Part shown: positions 16,575-38,135 of the stretch, one piece after another
How positions within the stretch are numbered: the first letter of the stretch is position 1
Layout of the letters: the number at the start of each line of letters is the position of its first letter
DNA from: Janibacter sp. DB-40
GTDB taxonomy: Bacteria > Actinomycetota > Actinomycetes > Actinomycetales > Dermatophilaceae
Direction of reading: 5' to 3'
DNA length: 64,000 nucleotides
NCBI RefSeq assembly: GCF_029510815.1
Contig: NZ_CP120360.1
Span: forward strand, 62,001 to 126,000
The notes under the pieces: model-generated
The model's database searches: none
Told to the model about the DNA's origin: nothing
What the model saw: only the letters and a program-made list of their open reading frames with translations
Program-made: the position numbers and the translations under genes

Positions 16575-17572
16575 CGGACCGGCTCCCCTTCGCTGGTCGG
16601 GCCGCCGGCGTGGTCGCCGAGGCTCGGGGAGGGTCGCACGTCCCTCGTCGGGGACCCGTCCCCCGGCGTGTCGCGGTACAGCTCGAGGAAGACGTCGTCG
16701 AGGCTCGGCGGGGTGATCGTCAGGGTGTGCACCCCGGCGGCGTGGACCCGGCCGACGACGTCGGCGATCTGCGTCGCGTCGACGTGGCAGCGGATCTCCG
16801 GGCGCCCCTCGGAGGTGCTCGCCACCAGCCCGGTGACGCCGGGGACCGGGGCGAGGTCGAGCGGCCGGTCGGTCACGGCGTGCACCTGGCTGCTGGTGCT
16901 GCGGCGCAGCTCGGCGAGCGTCCCGGTCGTGACGGTCCGCCCCGAGCGGATGATGGTGACCCGGTCGGCGAGGGCCTCGACCTCCCCGAGGATGTGGCTC
17001 GACAGGAGCACGGTCGTGCCGTCGGCGACGCGCTCGCGCACGGTCTCCTGGAAGACCTGCTCCATGAGCGGGTCGAGGCCGGAGGTCGGCTCGTCGAGGA
17101 GCAGCAGCTCGACGTCGGCGGCGAGCGCGGCGATGAGCGAGACCTTCTGCTTGTTGCCGCTGGAGTAGTCGCGCGTCCGCTTGCGGGTGTCGAGGTCGAA
17201 GCGCTCGACCAGCTCGGCCCGGCGTCGCTCGTCGATGCCACCGTGGGCGCGACCGAGGATGTCGATGCACTGCCCGCCGGTCAGGCCCGGCCACAGGATG
17301 ACGTCGGCGGGCACGTAGGCGAGCCGCCGGTGCAGCGCGACGGCGGCTCGCCACGGGTCGCCGCCGAGGACGGTGACGGTGCCGCCGTCGGCGCGGGTGA
17401 GACCGAGCAGGACGCGGATGGTCGTCGACTTGCCGGAGCCGTTGGGGCCGAGGAAGCCGTGCACCTCACCGGGCGCGACGTCGAGGTCGAGCCCGTCGAG
17501 GGCCCGGGTGCTGCCGTACGCCTTGCGCAGGTCGGCGGCGTGGATGATCTGGTCGGGTGCGGTCTCGCTCAT
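16571..17572 (-). CDS. ABC transporter ATP-binding protein (drug-exporter type)
   Basis: A 333-aa ABC ATPase of the DrrA/antibiotic-exporter class. Walker A GPNGSGKST is at 42-50, the signature is the variant SSGNKQKV, Walker B is LLLLDEPTSGLDP and the switch His is in SSHILGEVE. A DrrA-type C-terminal extension (about 230-310, ending DDVFLELY) follows, then a Pro/Ser/Gly-rich tail. Start and stop overlap tetR and the permease by 4 nt (ATGA), so the three genes are translationally coupled. Confidence 0.9.
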   Translation of the reverse strand: MSETAPDQIIHAADLRKAYGSTRALDGLDLDVAPGEVHGFLGPNGSGKSTTIRVLLGLTRADGGTVTVLGGDPWRAAVALHRRLAYVPADVILWPGLTGGQCIDILGRAHGGIDERRRAELVERFDLDTRKRTRDYSSGNKQKVSLIAALAADVELLLLDEPTSGLDPLMEQVFQETVRERVADGTTVLLSSHILGEVEALADRVTIIRSGRTVTTGTLAELRRSTSSQVHAVTDRPLDLAPVPGVTGLVASTSEGRPEIRCHVDATQIADVVGRVHAAGVHTLTITPPSLDDVFLELYRDTPGDGSPTRDVRPSPSLGDHAGGPTSEGEPVR

Positions 17573-18222
17573 GGTCGCTCCTTCGACGAAGGGGGTCGGT
17601 CCCCGATCGCGGTGTCTGTCCCTGTATCCGGTGTGGGCAAGATCGCGGCATAGACACGCATCGCCTCGTCGGCCCACCGGGCGAAGCCGTCGCCGTGGAG
17701 CGGGTCGTAGCCGAGGACCTGCTGCCAGTGGTCGGCGAGCAGGAGGGTGCCGAGGTCGGAGGACATCGCCAGCGCCGCGCGGGTCTCCGGGTCGGGCCCG
17801 GCGAGGAGCTGTCCCGCCTCGTCCCAGGCGCGGAAGGTCTCGACGGTGCGGCGGTGCCAGGCGCTGAGCAGCTCGGTGGCGAGCGGGTCGCCGGTCATCA
17901 TCAGTCGGCGCAGGTAGGGGATGACGGGGGAGCCCTCGGGGAGGGCCTGCTGGAGCACCTCGGCGATCGAGGACCACTCGCCGGTGAGCCCGCTGTCGGT
18001 CGAGAGGTCGAAGAGCTCGTCCATCCGGTCGCGCACGTGCTCGACGACCGCCTGGCGCAGCCCCGCCTTGGACCCGAAGTGGTGCACGACGAGCGCCGCG
18101 GACACGCCGGCACGCTCGGCGATCTGCCGCATCGTCACCGCGTCCTCGCCGTGCTCGGCGAAGAGCTCGAGCGCTGCATCCCGCACCCGCGCCCGGGCCG
18201 TCCGGTCGTCCACTGAACTCAT
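17569..18222 (-). CDS. TetR family repressor of the ABC exporter operon
   Basis: A 217-aa TetR regulator. The N-terminal HTH (about 8-55) has the form AALELFAEHGEDAVTMRQIAERAGVSAALVVHHFGSKAGL; the C-terminal ligand domain is all-helical. I chose ATG 18222 rather than GTG 18231 because TAGTGT ends 7 nt upstream of the ATG and no Shine-Dalgarno exists. Two tandem palindromes cover the promoter and start, so autorepression of the whole operon is expected, released by a drug-like ligand. Its stop overlaps the ATPase start by 4 nt. Confidence 0.9.
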   Translation of the reverse strand: MSSVDDRTARARVRDAALELFAEHGEDAVTMRQIAERAGVSAALVVHHFGSKAGLRQAVVEHVRDRMDELFDLSTDSGLTGEWSSIAEVLQQALPEGSPVIPYLRRLMMTGDPLATELLSAWHRRTVETFRAWDEAGQLLAGPDPETRAALAMSSDLGTLLLADHWQQVLGYDPLHGDGFARWADEAMRVYAAILPTPDTGTDTAIGDRPPSSKERP

Positions 18223-18259: not shown

Positions 18260-18290
18260 GGTCTCCGCGTTGATCACTCCACCCCCCATT

Positions 18291-18397
18291 CGCAACTGCT
18301 TAGGCTCCTGCGAGTTGTGGGTGCCGCTCTTTCGCAACTGCTTAGGCTCCTGCAAAGCCTTGGGCGCCCCTCTTTCGCAACTGCTTGGGCTCCTGCG
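18291..18397. repeat. Triple array of the CGCAACTGCTTAGG-type intergenic repeat
   Basis: Three 22-nt copies begin at 18291, 18333 and 18376 (periods 42 and 43 bp). Flanking linkers are also partly conserved (TCTTTC before copies 2 and 3). The array lies between the divergent tetR and nucleotidyltransferase genes. The last copy belongs to a 92-bp segment duplicated in inverted orientation at 37251-37342. Spacers are not unique, so this is not CRISPR. Confidence 0.9.
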
Positions 18398-18442
18398 AGT
18401 TCGGGGCGCCGCGGTCCGGTGTGGCTGAGTAGGGTCGCGACC

Positions 18443-19030
18443 ATGTCAGCGACGGTGAGCGGGCTCGTCCTCGCGGCGGGGGCGGGGCGCCGGATGGGCA
18501 TGCCCAAGGCGCTCAAGACCGATCCCGACGGCACCTCGTGGCTCGCCCGGGCGGTCGCCGTGCTCCGTGACGGCGGGTGCGCGGACGTCACCGTCGTCCT
18601 CGGGGCCTGCGGGGGCCGCGCTGCCGAGCTCGTCCCCGACGTGCCGCACCTGCTCTGCCCTGACTGGGACGAGGGGATCGGCGCCTCGCTCGCCCACGGG
18701 CTGCGCCACCTGACCGCCCGCCCCGACGTCGACGCTGTGCTCGTCCACCTCGTCGACCTCCCCGACGTGACGGCGGACGTCCCCCGCCGTCTGCTGGCGA
18801 AGGGGGCCGCCCCGGCCGATCTGCGCCGCGCCGTCTACGACGGCGTGCCCGGCCACCCGGTGCTCATCGGCCGTGACCACTGGGCGCCCCTGCTCGCGGA
18901 GCTCGCCGGCGACCGCGGTGCCGGGCCCTACCTGCGTCGCCACGGCGCCGTCGAGGTCGAGTGCGGTGACCTCGCCACCGGGCGCGACGTCGACACCCCC
19001 GTCGTCGACACCCCGGACGCCCGGGACTGA
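18443..19030 (+). CDS. MobA-like nucleotidyltransferase family protein
   Basis: A 195-aa NTP transferase of the MobA/MocA (CTP/GTP:molybdopterin-like) class. The nucleotide motif LAAGAGRRMGMPK is at 10-22 and the metal-binding LVDLPDV near 101-107. Such proteins attach a nucleotide to molybdopterin in xanthine-dehydrogenase-type enzymes, but no molybdoenzyme gene is nearby, so the substrate is open. The ATG follows TAGGGT by 7 nt (leaderless). This promoter and start are duplicated at 37 kb. Confidence 0.82.
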   Translation: MSATVSGLVLAAGAGRRMGMPKALKTDPDGTSWLARAVAVLRDGGCADVTVVLGACGGRAAELVPDVPHLLCPDWDEGIGASLAHGLRHLTARPDVDAVLVHLVDLPDVTADVPRRLLAKGAAPADLRRAVYDGVPGHPVLIGRDHWAPLLAELAGDRGAGPYLRRHGAVEVECGDLATGRDVDTPVVDTPDARD

Positions 19031-22709: not shown

Positions 22710-22729
22710 CCGTTCTCGCACCGGAGTTC

Positions 22730-22812
22730 GCAGGAGCCCAAGCAGTTGCGGGAGGTGTTCGCAGGAGCCCAAGCAGTTGCGGGGGGTGTTCGCAGGAGCC
22801 CAAGCAGCTGCG
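22730..22812. repeat. Triple array of the GCAGGAGCCCAAGCAGTTGCG repeat
   Basis: Three 21-nt copies begin at 22730, 22761 and 22792, with an exact 31-bp period, shorter than the 42-bp arrays elsewhere. Linkers are also repeated (GGNGGTGTTC). It lies between the NMO-type gene and the 495-aa unknown gene, both on the plus strand, and runs in the opposite sense to the 18-kb array. Confidence 0.9.
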
Positions 22813-29243: not shown

Positions 29244-29265
29244 CGCATTTGCCTGGGGAAATGCG
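29244..29265. terminator. Convergent terminator-like hairpin
   Basis: CGCATTT (29244-29250) pairs with AAATGCG (29259-29265) across an 8-nt loop, between the convergent SDR and YbaK genes. A CCTGGGG word of the loop recurs 30 nt later. Moderate terminator candidate. Confidence 0.5.
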
Positions 29266-36050: not shown

Positions 36051-36971
36051 ATGAGCTACCAGCCACCGCCACCGCCACCTCCGGGCGGGCCGGGCCAACC
36101 ACCCCCGTCCGGTGGGTACGGAGGACCGCCCTATCCGCCTCCGGGTGGTTACGGCGGTCAGCCGCCCGGTGGCTACGGTGGCCCACCCGGCGGTTACGGC
36201 GGTGGCCCACCCGGCGGTTACGGCGGTGGCCCACCCGGCGGTTACGGCGGTCAGCCACCCGGGTGGGGCGGCGTCCCGACGCCCTACAGCCCCCTCGAGG
36301 CGCTGACCTACGGCTGGCGGAAGTTCACCCAGAACCTCGGACCCTTCCTCGGGATGACGGTGCTGCTCGGTGTCATCGCCCTCGGGTTCTCCTTCGTCTC
36401 CGAGCTCCTGCTGCAGACCGGTCCGACCGTCCCCGGCCCAGCCGACCCGTTCACCGGTGAGCCGACGCAGGTGCGTGAGCCGGGGATCGGCGCGATCGCG
36501 GCCAGCGGCGTCCTGAGCATCATCAGCGCGATCGTCCAGTTCGTCATCGCCGCTGCTCTGATCCGTGCCGCGCTCGACGTGGTCGACACGGGGAGCGCGA
36601 GCATCGGCACGATGTTCACCCGGATCCCGTGGCTGCACATGGTGCTGGCGGCCATCCTCGTCGCCCTGGTGAGCATGGTCGGTCTGATCCTGTGCATCAT
36701 CCCGGGCATCATCGCCGCGTTCCTGCTGTCCTTCACCAACTTTGCGGTCGTGGACGGCAACTCGGCCACGGATGCGATGGGGGCGAGCTTCCGGTTCACC
36801 AAGGCCAATGCCGGTCCGGTGCTGCTCCTCTTCCTGGTCTTCCTCGGCCTCGGGATCCTCTCGCTGTGCACCCTCGGCCTCGGCTTCCTGGTCCTGATCC
36901 CGGTGGGCTACATCGCCGTGGCCTACACCTGGCGCATGCTGCAGGGGCGCCCAGCCGTCGGGGCCGCCTGA
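36051..36971 (+). CDS. Pro/Gly/Tyr-rich N-terminus membrane protein
   Basis: A 306-aa protein. Residues 1-80 are a low-complexity cytoplasmic segment of GGYGG and PP repeats; the rest is a membrane domain with about six helices resembling the DUF975/glycerophosphodiester-phosphodiesterase-like membrane domains (GWRKFTQNLGPFLGMTVLLG ... LSFTNFAVVDGNSATDAM ... FRFTKANAGPVLLLF). Function unknown. It has no nearby partner. The repeat-coded DNA is prone to slippage. Confidence 0.78.
   Translation: MSYQPPPPPPPGGPGQPPPSGGYGGPPYPPPGGYGGQPPGGYGGPPGGYGGGPPGGYGGGPPGGYGGQPPGWGGVPTPYSPLEALTYGWRKFTQNLGPFLGMTVLLGVIALGFSFVSELLLQTGPTVPGPADPFTGEPTQVREPGIGAIAASGVLSIISAIVQFVIAAALIRAALDVVDTGSASIGTMFTRIPWLHMVLAAILVALVSMVGLILCIIPGIIAAFLLSFTNFAVVDGNSATDAMGASFRFTKANAGPVLLLFLVFLGLGILSLCTLGLGFLVLIPVGYIAVAYTWRMLQGRPAVGAA
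36127..36260 (+). repeat. In-frame 24-bp tandem repeat coding PPGGYGG
   Basis: A run of near-identical 24-nt units (GGCGGTGGCCCACCCGGCGG core) codes the PPGGYGGG repeats of the membrane protein. At least three units (about 36190-36255) are almost perfect and the flanks degenerate. Repeat number is probably variable between strains. Confidence 0.8.
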
Positions 36972-37031
36972 CCCGGTCCGGCTAACCCGCAGCCCCTTGA
37001 CGGGCTGTGAATGCCGGGAGCAGGCTGTGGC

Positions 37032-37238
37032 ATGGTCAGGACTCCGGCTCCAGCAGGCATCATGGTCGCACTAGGACTGGTCGACGGGGCGGCAGCAGGG
37101 ACGGCCATCGGTGTGGCGGTGGCCGGCGGGCCCGGTCTCGCCCTCGGCGCAGCCATGGGCGGGGGGTTGGGCATCGTCGTCGGTGCGATCGTCGATCAGT
37201 GGTCCTCTGCGAGGTCGCGCACCGATCCCACGAGCTGA
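37032..37238 (+). CDS. Small glycine-zipper protein
   Basis: A 68-aa protein almost wholly made of a Gly/Ala helical zipper (ALGLVDGAAAGTAIGVAVAGGPGLALGAAMGGGLGIVVGAIVD), consistent with a membrane hairpin of two helices. Function unknown. I start at ATG 37032; ATG 37011 in the same frame would add 7 residues. The end of the gene is close to the inverted promoter copy at 37251-37342, which would transcribe antisense across it. Confidence 0.6.
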   Translation: MVRTPAPAGIMVALGLVDGAAAGTAIGVAVAGGPGLALGAAMGGGLGIVVGAIVDQWSSARSRTDPTS

Positions 37239-37250
37239 GTCTGCGGCGTC

Positions 37251-37342
37251 GCCCGCTCGCCGTCGCTGACATGGTCGCGACCCTACTCAGCCGCAACGGA
37301 CCGCGGCGCCCAGAACTCGCAGGAGCCTAAGCACTTGCGAAA
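37251..37342 (-). repeat. Inverted 92-bp copy of the promoter and start region of the 18.4-kb gene
   Basis: The minus strand here matches 18373-18464 at 86 of 92 positions by eye. The copy includes the last repeat unit, the TAGGGT -10 element, the 7-nt gap and an ATG (37270-37272) with the first six codons, then diverges. The fused minus frame runs to about 37060 (70 residues, Arg-rich) antisense to the glycine-zipper gene and looks non-coding. Confidence 0.85.
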
Positions 37343-37423
37343 GGGGGGCACCCAGACCTTGCAGGAGCCTAAGCACTTGCGAAAGGGGGGCGCCCAGAAC
37401 TCGCAGGAGCCTAAGCAGTTGCG
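37319..37423. repeat. Triple array of the GCAGGAGCCTAAGCACTTGCG repeat
   Basis: Three 21-nt copies begin at 37319, 37361 and 37403, an exact 42-bp period with conserved linkers (AAAGGGGGGC...CCAGA). The first copy is part of the inverted 92-bp duplication. Located between the glycine-zipper gene and the methyltransferase 3' end (37527). Confidence 0.9.
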
Positions 37424-37526
37424 AAAGGAGGCTGCGCTCGGGGCGTGGATGGCCTTGCGCACGGCCGCGGTCGATCGCCATGGGGATTGCGGTCGTGGCG
37501 CGCACGACCCCACGAGATGCGGTGGA

Positions 37527-38135
37527 TCAGCGGCCGAAGATCGCCACGATGTACTCGCCGTCCTCGGCGAAGGGCTCGAGCGCCCACCCGCCGAGGAGGA
37601 CCTGCTCGGTCAGACCCGCCGCCGTCGCGTCGGCCCGGAAGTCCGCGAAGTCGTAGCCGCGCCCCGCACCGAATCCGATGACCACGCGCCCGCCCTCGGC
37701 CAGGTGCTCGGCGAAGCCGGCGAGGACGTCGCCGCGGGTGCTCGGCGCGAGGAAGGTCATGACATTGCCGGCCGAGACGATCACGTCGAAGAGCCGGCGC
37801 TCGCCCCCTTCGGCCCGCACGTCGAGGACGGCGAGGTCGCTGACCAGCCACTCGGGACCGGGGTGGTCCTCCTTCGCCGCGGCGATGAGGGCGGGGTCGA
37901 CGTCGGCCCCGGTGACCTCGTGGCCCAGCTCGTGGAGCCGGCCGCCCACTCGGCCGGGGCCGCAACCGGCGTCGAGGATGCGGGCACCCCGCGCGGCCAT
38001 CGCGTCGACGAGGCGGGCCTCACCGTGCAGGTCGTCCCCGCGCGCGGCCATCGCCCGGAAGCGCTCGATGTACCACGTCGAGTGGTTCGGATCCTCTGCG
38101 ACCTTGCGCATCCACTGACTCGTCTCAGGCACCAT
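37527..38135 (-). CDS. Class I SAM-dependent methyltransferase
   Basis: A 202-aa methyltransferase. Motif I is ILDAGCGPGRVGGRL (about 54-68), the acidic motif II end is GADVDPALI and motif IV-V includes FDVIVSAGNVMTFL. Substrate unknown. Related proteins often act on small molecules. ATG 38135 follows TATCGT by 6 nt (leaderless). It is separated from the RIC gene by 92 nt on the same strand. Confidence 0.88.
   Translation of the reverse strand: MVPETSQWMRKVAEDPNHSTWYIERFRAMAARGDDLHGEARLVDAMAARGARILDAGCGPGRVGGRLHELGHEVTGADVDPALIAAAKEDHPGPEWLVSDLAVLDVRAEGGERRLFDVIVSAGNVMTFLAPSTRGDVLAGFAEHLAEGGRVVIGFGAGRGYDFADFRADATAAGLTEQVLLGGWALEPFAEDGEYIVAIFGR

Follow-up and report, generated by a model that had tools for sequence, protein, structure and literature searches.

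A nucleotidyltransferase gene start copied in inverted orientation with a tandem dyad array in Janibacter sp. DB-40

The start of a MobA-like nucleotidyltransferase (NTase) gene of Janibacter sp. DB-40, together with its candidate promoter and the array of 22-bp dyads upstream of it, occurs a second time in inverted orientation at a 37-kb locus of the same window, the 64,000-nucleotide stretch of DNA analyzed here (C1:62001-126000 of the one-contig 3.35-Mb genome, G000). Our analysis confirms this observation, which was made in a first-pass annotation, and supports the direction of copying that it proposed, from the NTase locus to the 37-kb locus. A general delivery of promoters by the repeat arrays is not supported.

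Homology between the NTase gene start and the 37-kb locus

The NTase gene (18443..19030, plus strand; Pfam NTP_transf_3, E 3.7e-29) is divergent from a TetR-family regulator gene (17569..18222, minus strand; Pfam TetR_N, E 3.4e-17). Between them lies array A (18291..18397, minus strand), which consists of three 22-bp dyads starting at 18291, 18333 and 18376 (spacings 42 and 43 bp), and a candidate −10-like element visible in the sequence, TAGGGT (18430..18435, plus strand), stands 7 bp upstream of the ATG. The source block, denoted block A (18280..18464, plus strand), contains the array, the promoter, the ATG and NTase codons 2-7, and block B (37251..37434, minus strand) is its inverted, truncated copy. 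Alignment of 18280-18464(+) with 37434-37251(−) gives 166 identical bases in 185 columns with one 1-bp gap, a divergence of about 10% of positions (E = 3e-65, BLAST within G000). The homologous block is thus longer than the 92 bp first noted. For that shorter pair, 18373-18464 against the reverse complement of 37251-37342, the annotated figure of about 86 equal bases proves to be exactly 86/92. Identity is not limited to the 22-nt repeat, since 63 of the 67 bases outside the array (18398-18464) are equal in the two blocks.

The blocks share a complete three-unit array, the 32 bp that lead to the −10 element, the TAGGGT itself, the ATG and NTase codons 2-7. On the far side the block ends close to the array, and on the gene side it ends 67 bp beyond it. 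The ends of block B are abrupt, with no inverted repeats of the block's own, and an imperfect direct repeat (13/15 bases, 37223-37237 and 37505-37519) lies at a distance on either side of it; the former copy lies at the end of a glycine-zipper gene and the latter within a relic dyad. Only two of the 84 matches to a 122-bp query in G000 include the promoter-ATG part (blocks A and B), and there is no third place. A second match between the flanks of the two blocks (44 bp, 84%; about 18131-18174 with 37540-37583) was ascribed to chance, because both segments are coding sequence present in relatives and the orientation of the match is not that of the A/B alignment.

As annotated at first pass, the copy still has its −10 element (TAGGGT, 37280..37285, minus strand, seen in the sequence) and its ATG (37270..37272, minus strand), and the spacing between them is retained. 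Also borne out is its fusion to sequence on the antisense strand of the glycine-zipper gene: the copied ATG opens a 70-aa antisense ORF that runs from 37272 to 37060. Its codon score is non-coding (−0.59; NTase, +0.22; glycine-zipper gene, −0.01). There is no evident gene behind the copied candidate promoter, which is probably a passenger.

The direction of copying can be read from the gene starts. The NTase gene begins with ATGGCGAACGTGAGCGGGCT in three related genomes (G013, G014, G005) versus ATGTCAGCGACGGTGAGCGGGCT in G000. The terminus of block B reads GACGGCGAGCGGGC, and its last 8 bases are NTase codons common to the three relatives, so that the 37-kb block is the copy. The N-terminus MSATVSG is also present in a separate metagenome NTase (P0004, 92% identical), which argues that locus A is a native gene start. 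Thirteen of the 49 proteins listed in the NTase protein search were inspected, including the window's own; among the 12 others, P0004 has MSATVSG, P0011 is truncated at its start and ten have different starts (MANVSG, MATVHG, MVSTVSG, MAARVSG, MTATVHG, MTVHG, MSTVHG). The −10 element and leader of the G000 NTase gene are clearly unlike those of G013, G014 and G005, and these three carry another palindromic sequence in the TetR-NTase gap where G000 has array A. Locus A may therefore have been exchanged before it was copied.

Receiving site and origin of the copy

In the closest relative compared (G013), aligned blocks are 92-96% identical to G000. Comparison with G013, G005 and G014 delimits a segment of about 500 bp (36983..37481) that is extra in G000; its place is taken by 40 bp in G013 and by about 75-80 bp in G005 and G014. 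The flanking genes thus stand 40-80 bp apart in these genomes, with neither the glycine-zipper gene nor block B between them, so that the copy is absent from the 37-kb locus in all three relatives (3/3). The segment contains a small glycine-rich (glycine-zipper-like) gene of 68 aa (37032..37238, plus strand), whose product is 88% identical to a metagenome protein of equal length (P0001) and has no Pfam match; the gene is found in G000 alone among 16 Janibacter genomes. Block B begins 12 bp past its stop codon and includes array B (37318..37423, plus strand), with three 22-bp dyads starting at 37318, 37360 and 37402 (spacings 42 and 42 bp). Beyond it lies a relic dyad of another family (CGACC/GAGA type; 37501..37521, plus strand), and G013 has two dyads of this type at the locus, of which G000 retains the one relic. 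A query of 36981-37560 has any match in 10 of 38 relatives, either to the array, to the end of a methyltransferase gene or to short segments elsewhere (29-67 bp). Matches of 30 nt in G021 and G022 (E about 6e-4) that touch the copied start region were read as chance. Upstream of the segment, a 24-bp tandem repeat (36147-36262) is located in the Pro-, Gly- and Tyr-rich N-terminus of a membrane protein gene (36051-36971).

The origin that we hold probable, on balance, is one-sided ectopic recombination, in which the array served as homology and the NTase 5′ end was copied in truncated, inverted form to give block B. A broken or stalled end with an array or array-like unit would have paired with array A. 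Synthesis would then have copied the array and continued about 67 bp past its edge, through the promoter, the ATG and codons 2-7, and illegitimate rejoining would have placed the product 12 bp past the glycine-zipper stop codon, where the boundary is observed to be abrupt. Such copying is favored because the whole array is included while the block ends near the array on its far side and overruns it by 67 bp on the gene side, because the block ends are abrupt and without inverted repeats, and because the site is without the block in G013, G014 and G005. If arrays are copied about, other pairs of arrays are expected to be alike, and 85-91% identity is found over 107-154 bp of array. Several points count against ectopic copying: the glycine-zipper gene is also peculiar to G000 and may have arrived together with the block, locus A was possibly exchanged itself given its distinct −10 and leader, the weak direct repeat around block B could hint at insertion, and the sharing of flanks is a single case.

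A joint arrival is the alternative that survives best, and we regard it as unlikely though worth serious weight. Block B would have come already joined to the glycine-zipper gene on a segment of about 500 bp from another Janibacter strain, with the copying done elsewhere. The segment that G013, G005 and G014 lack consists of the gene and the block together, the gene is found in one of 16 Janibacter genomes with an 88% relative in a metagenome, and the difference of about 10% between blocks A and B is above expectation for a very recent copy. No donor with both gene and block was found, however, and a joint arrival shifts the copying to another lineage and leaves it unexplained.

The remaining origins are far less probable. 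Movement in the reverse direction, in which the NTase gene would have received its array, promoter and ATG from the 37-kb locus, agrees with the unlike leader and first codons of the G000 NTase and with the absence of the array at the NTase gene of the three relatives, but is very improbable given that block B ends in NTase codons with no gene behind them and that the MSATVSG start is found in another NTase. A duplication of the whole NTase gene that decayed to its first codons would account for the inclusion of the gene start, but we give it very little credence, as the homology ends abruptly at 18464/37251, next to an intact gene that has a relative of its own. A miniature mobile element of array and promoter moved by a transposase, to which the complete array in the unit and the short repeats flanking the block might point, is scarcely credible: the promoter part is in two copies only, the block ends lack inverted repeats, and a Y1 transposase, the one type searched, was found in none of seven Janibacter genomes.

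In a comparison of 53 array clusters with 300-bp flanks, a set that leaves out at least 8 further array places, flank abutting an array is shared at high identity in the A/B pair only (65 bp, 93.8%, E 8e-21). The masked flank comparison also gives many weak matches (57-95%, 21-150 bp), none of which abut arrays. The initial suggestion that arrays generally move with neighboring DNA and deliver promoters is thus narrowed to one pair among 53 clusters. Because array pairs are so much alike, arrays may spread by copying, but seldom with their neighbors. The A/B case indicates that a repeat array can bring a promoter and a start codon to another site with no visible transposase, and one pair among 53 arrays bounds the frequency of such carriage.

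Organization of the dyad arrays in G000

The array unit is a 22-bp dyad, CGCA-N14-TGCG, arranged head to tail, and the arrays of G000 hold about 150-200 copies of it. The sequence GCAGGAGCCYAAGCA occurs 198 times in G000 at ≤1 mismatch (100 places listed), compared with 6 for the reversed control. With ≤5 mismatches, 180 matches to the 22-bp core, 7 of which are one dyad scored on the other strand, fall into 53 clusters in 46 stretches and the window. Within the window, array C (22729..22812, plus strand) has three dyads at spacings of 31 and 31 bp, and a dyad of another family (CGCA TTTGC CTGG GGAAA TGCG) is located at 29244-29265, followed by part of a second unit; its gap holds no dyad in G013 and is filled by different sequence in G014 and G005.

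Neighboring units in the same direction are spaced at three or four helical turns. Of 119 such spacings, which are not independent within one array, 45 are 30-33 bp and 71 are 39-43 bp (together 116/119), one is 28 bp and two are 62 bp. Among the 47 clusters with at least two units, spacing is all short in 15, all long in 27 and mixed in 5. By eye, the spacers are alike within an array and different between arrays; a CRISPR array was rejected on this account, as the spacers are not unique. Gene context, assigned with crude gene calls in which the glycine-zipper gene was missed, places 24 of the 53 clusters between convergent genes (24 of the 40 with classified intergenic context), 15 in tandem gaps, 1 (array A) in a divergent gap and 2 inside genes, with 11 unclassified. 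Clusters are enriched in the origin half of the chromosome (48/61, p 8e-6), also when the two complete site lists only are used (126/198 sites; 36/47 clusters, p 3e-4). A DUF559 nuclease was considered as a driver of the arrays and rejected: each of five genomes searched has only 2-4 matches, so there is no general link between DUF559 and arrays. In G000, one gene with a DUF559 match (C1:2822568-2824010) stands between arrays of 4 and 6 units.

Distribution and possible nature of the arrays

Counts of the dyad frame CGCANNNSCYYRRGSNNNTGCG differ widely among nine Janibacter genomes (G012, 201; G000, 154; G011, 135; G014, 35; G010, 29; G007, 13; G009, 8; G005, 3; G003, 1). Controls give 0-3 (3 in G003), so two of the nine are at background. 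The frame reaches at most 7 in any of the family's 140 other genomes, and at most 6 outside Janibacter in a draw of 248 genomes of the order, which overlaps the family set. In several other Janibacter species the frame is kept around different inner bases, in some of them at the same site. A related 17-nt core occurs 252 times in G001, a related dyad is present in G008, and the listed sites of G012 and G001 are spaced like those of G000. Upstream of the NTase gene, a frame dyad is present in 8 of 15 Janibacter loci (G000, G004, G006, G008, G010, G011, G012, G015), with at least five inner sequences, and no frame dyad is found in the other seven (G002, G003, G005, G007, G009, for which 20 bp only are available, G013, G014). 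Site-by-site comparison with G013, G014 and G005 covered five window sites; at that of array C there are 3 units in G000, 2 in G013, 1 in G014 and about 1.2 kb of other sequence in G005. In G012 (dnaA at C1:3218238) 28 of 47 clusters lie in the origin half, which is not significant (p 0.24; 100/107 sites listed). A tandem-repeat search of 20-40 kb samples from 12 other genomes found one array of period 31-32 or 41-43 bp, and the same search found no array of helical period in 4 of 8 Janibacter samples (G005, G010, G013, G014), so samples of this size are too small for a comparison of genera.

From their spacing, orientation and conservation, the arrays may be sites of a putative dimeric DNA-binding protein that binds cooperatively, as spacings of three or four helical turns would set the dyads on one face of the helix; of the roles considered, we hold this one the likeliest. 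We tentatively propose, as a possible reading, that Janibacter carries phased tandem operators of 22 bp, mostly at gene ends and numbering up to about 250 in some species, that the specificity of the putative protein has shifted between species and its sites have been exchanged throughout the genome, even within one and the same intergenic gap, and that the sites spread by recombination between arrays, of which the copied NTase promoter would be a footprint. Should a single protein use all the arrays as its operators, the genus would provide a natural series of species for the joint change of a protein and its hundred or more sites.

That the arrays are instead RNA hairpins or terminators at gene ends is a doubtful reading, with some evidence in its favor. 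It fits the preponderance of convergent and tandem gaps over the single divergent one, and in three arrays the six strands fold somewhat better than shuffled sequence (z −1.0 to −4.8). Against it stand the quantized spacing of the units and the conservation of non-pairing columns: in 168 units, the column pair 6-17 is GG in 155, 7-16 AA in 163 and 10-13 CA in 156, and the pair 1-22 is TG in 36 and CA in 14 with no compensating TA. The 168 units thus give no sign of a hairpin palindrome kept by compensating changes; this applies to the G000 family only, as dyads elsewhere (e.g. G011) can be perfect palindromes. No Rfam family matches the 64-kb window at gathering scores.

Returning to the reading as protein sites, the nucleoid-occlusion proteins Noc and SlmA bind many dyad sites. 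The arrays resemble these in the number of dyads and in the origin-half enrichment of G000, and differ in being phased tandem arrays and in the non-significant bias of G012; a reading as sites of the nucleoid-occlusion kind was set aside. Mobile promoters were reportedly described by Matus-Garcia et al. 2012 and van Passel et al. 2014. As in passages on such promoters in PMC8049555, one promoter sequence is present here in more than one copy. Unlike them, the NTase promoter is not dispersed before different genes but has two copies only in G000, tied to a repeat array and the second without an evident gene.

REP, BIME and REPIN elements are described in portions of PMC3733652 and PMC3116915 as short intergenic dyads, many per genome, that often lie close to gene 3′ ends in convergent or unidirectional arrangement. 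As far as those portions go, the Janibacter arrays are likewise short intergenic dyads with many copies per genome and several families per genus, and, as for REPs (PMC3733652), they sit behind genes (24 convergent and 15 tandem of the 53 clusters). They differ in being clustered head to tail with a spacing of three or four helical turns, and in a dyad that is kept imperfect in G000. By inspection, the unit consensus and flanks contain no GTAG or CGTC tag, and the RAYT-type Y1 transposase (PF01797) is found in 0 of 7 Janibacter genomes and in 5 of 14 controls. The parts of PMC6749651 on non-coding satellites of Leptospira describe tandem repeats scattered over the chromosome and apparently copied between places. 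The Janibacter repeats are similarly scattered and apparently copied about, but they are built from a constant 22-bp dyad, separated by spacers that have a fixed length and are specific to each array. Among the open-licence papers listed, judged partly by title and abstract start, none deals with these repeats. The copying event looks like the work of ordinary recombination, and the repeats like an unusual set of evenly spaced, species-specific sites.

In G013, two array matches on contig C1 recur at 60-66 kb and at 3465-3470 kb with the same offset of 3,404,681 bases, pointing to an overlap of about 90 kb between the ends of this contig.
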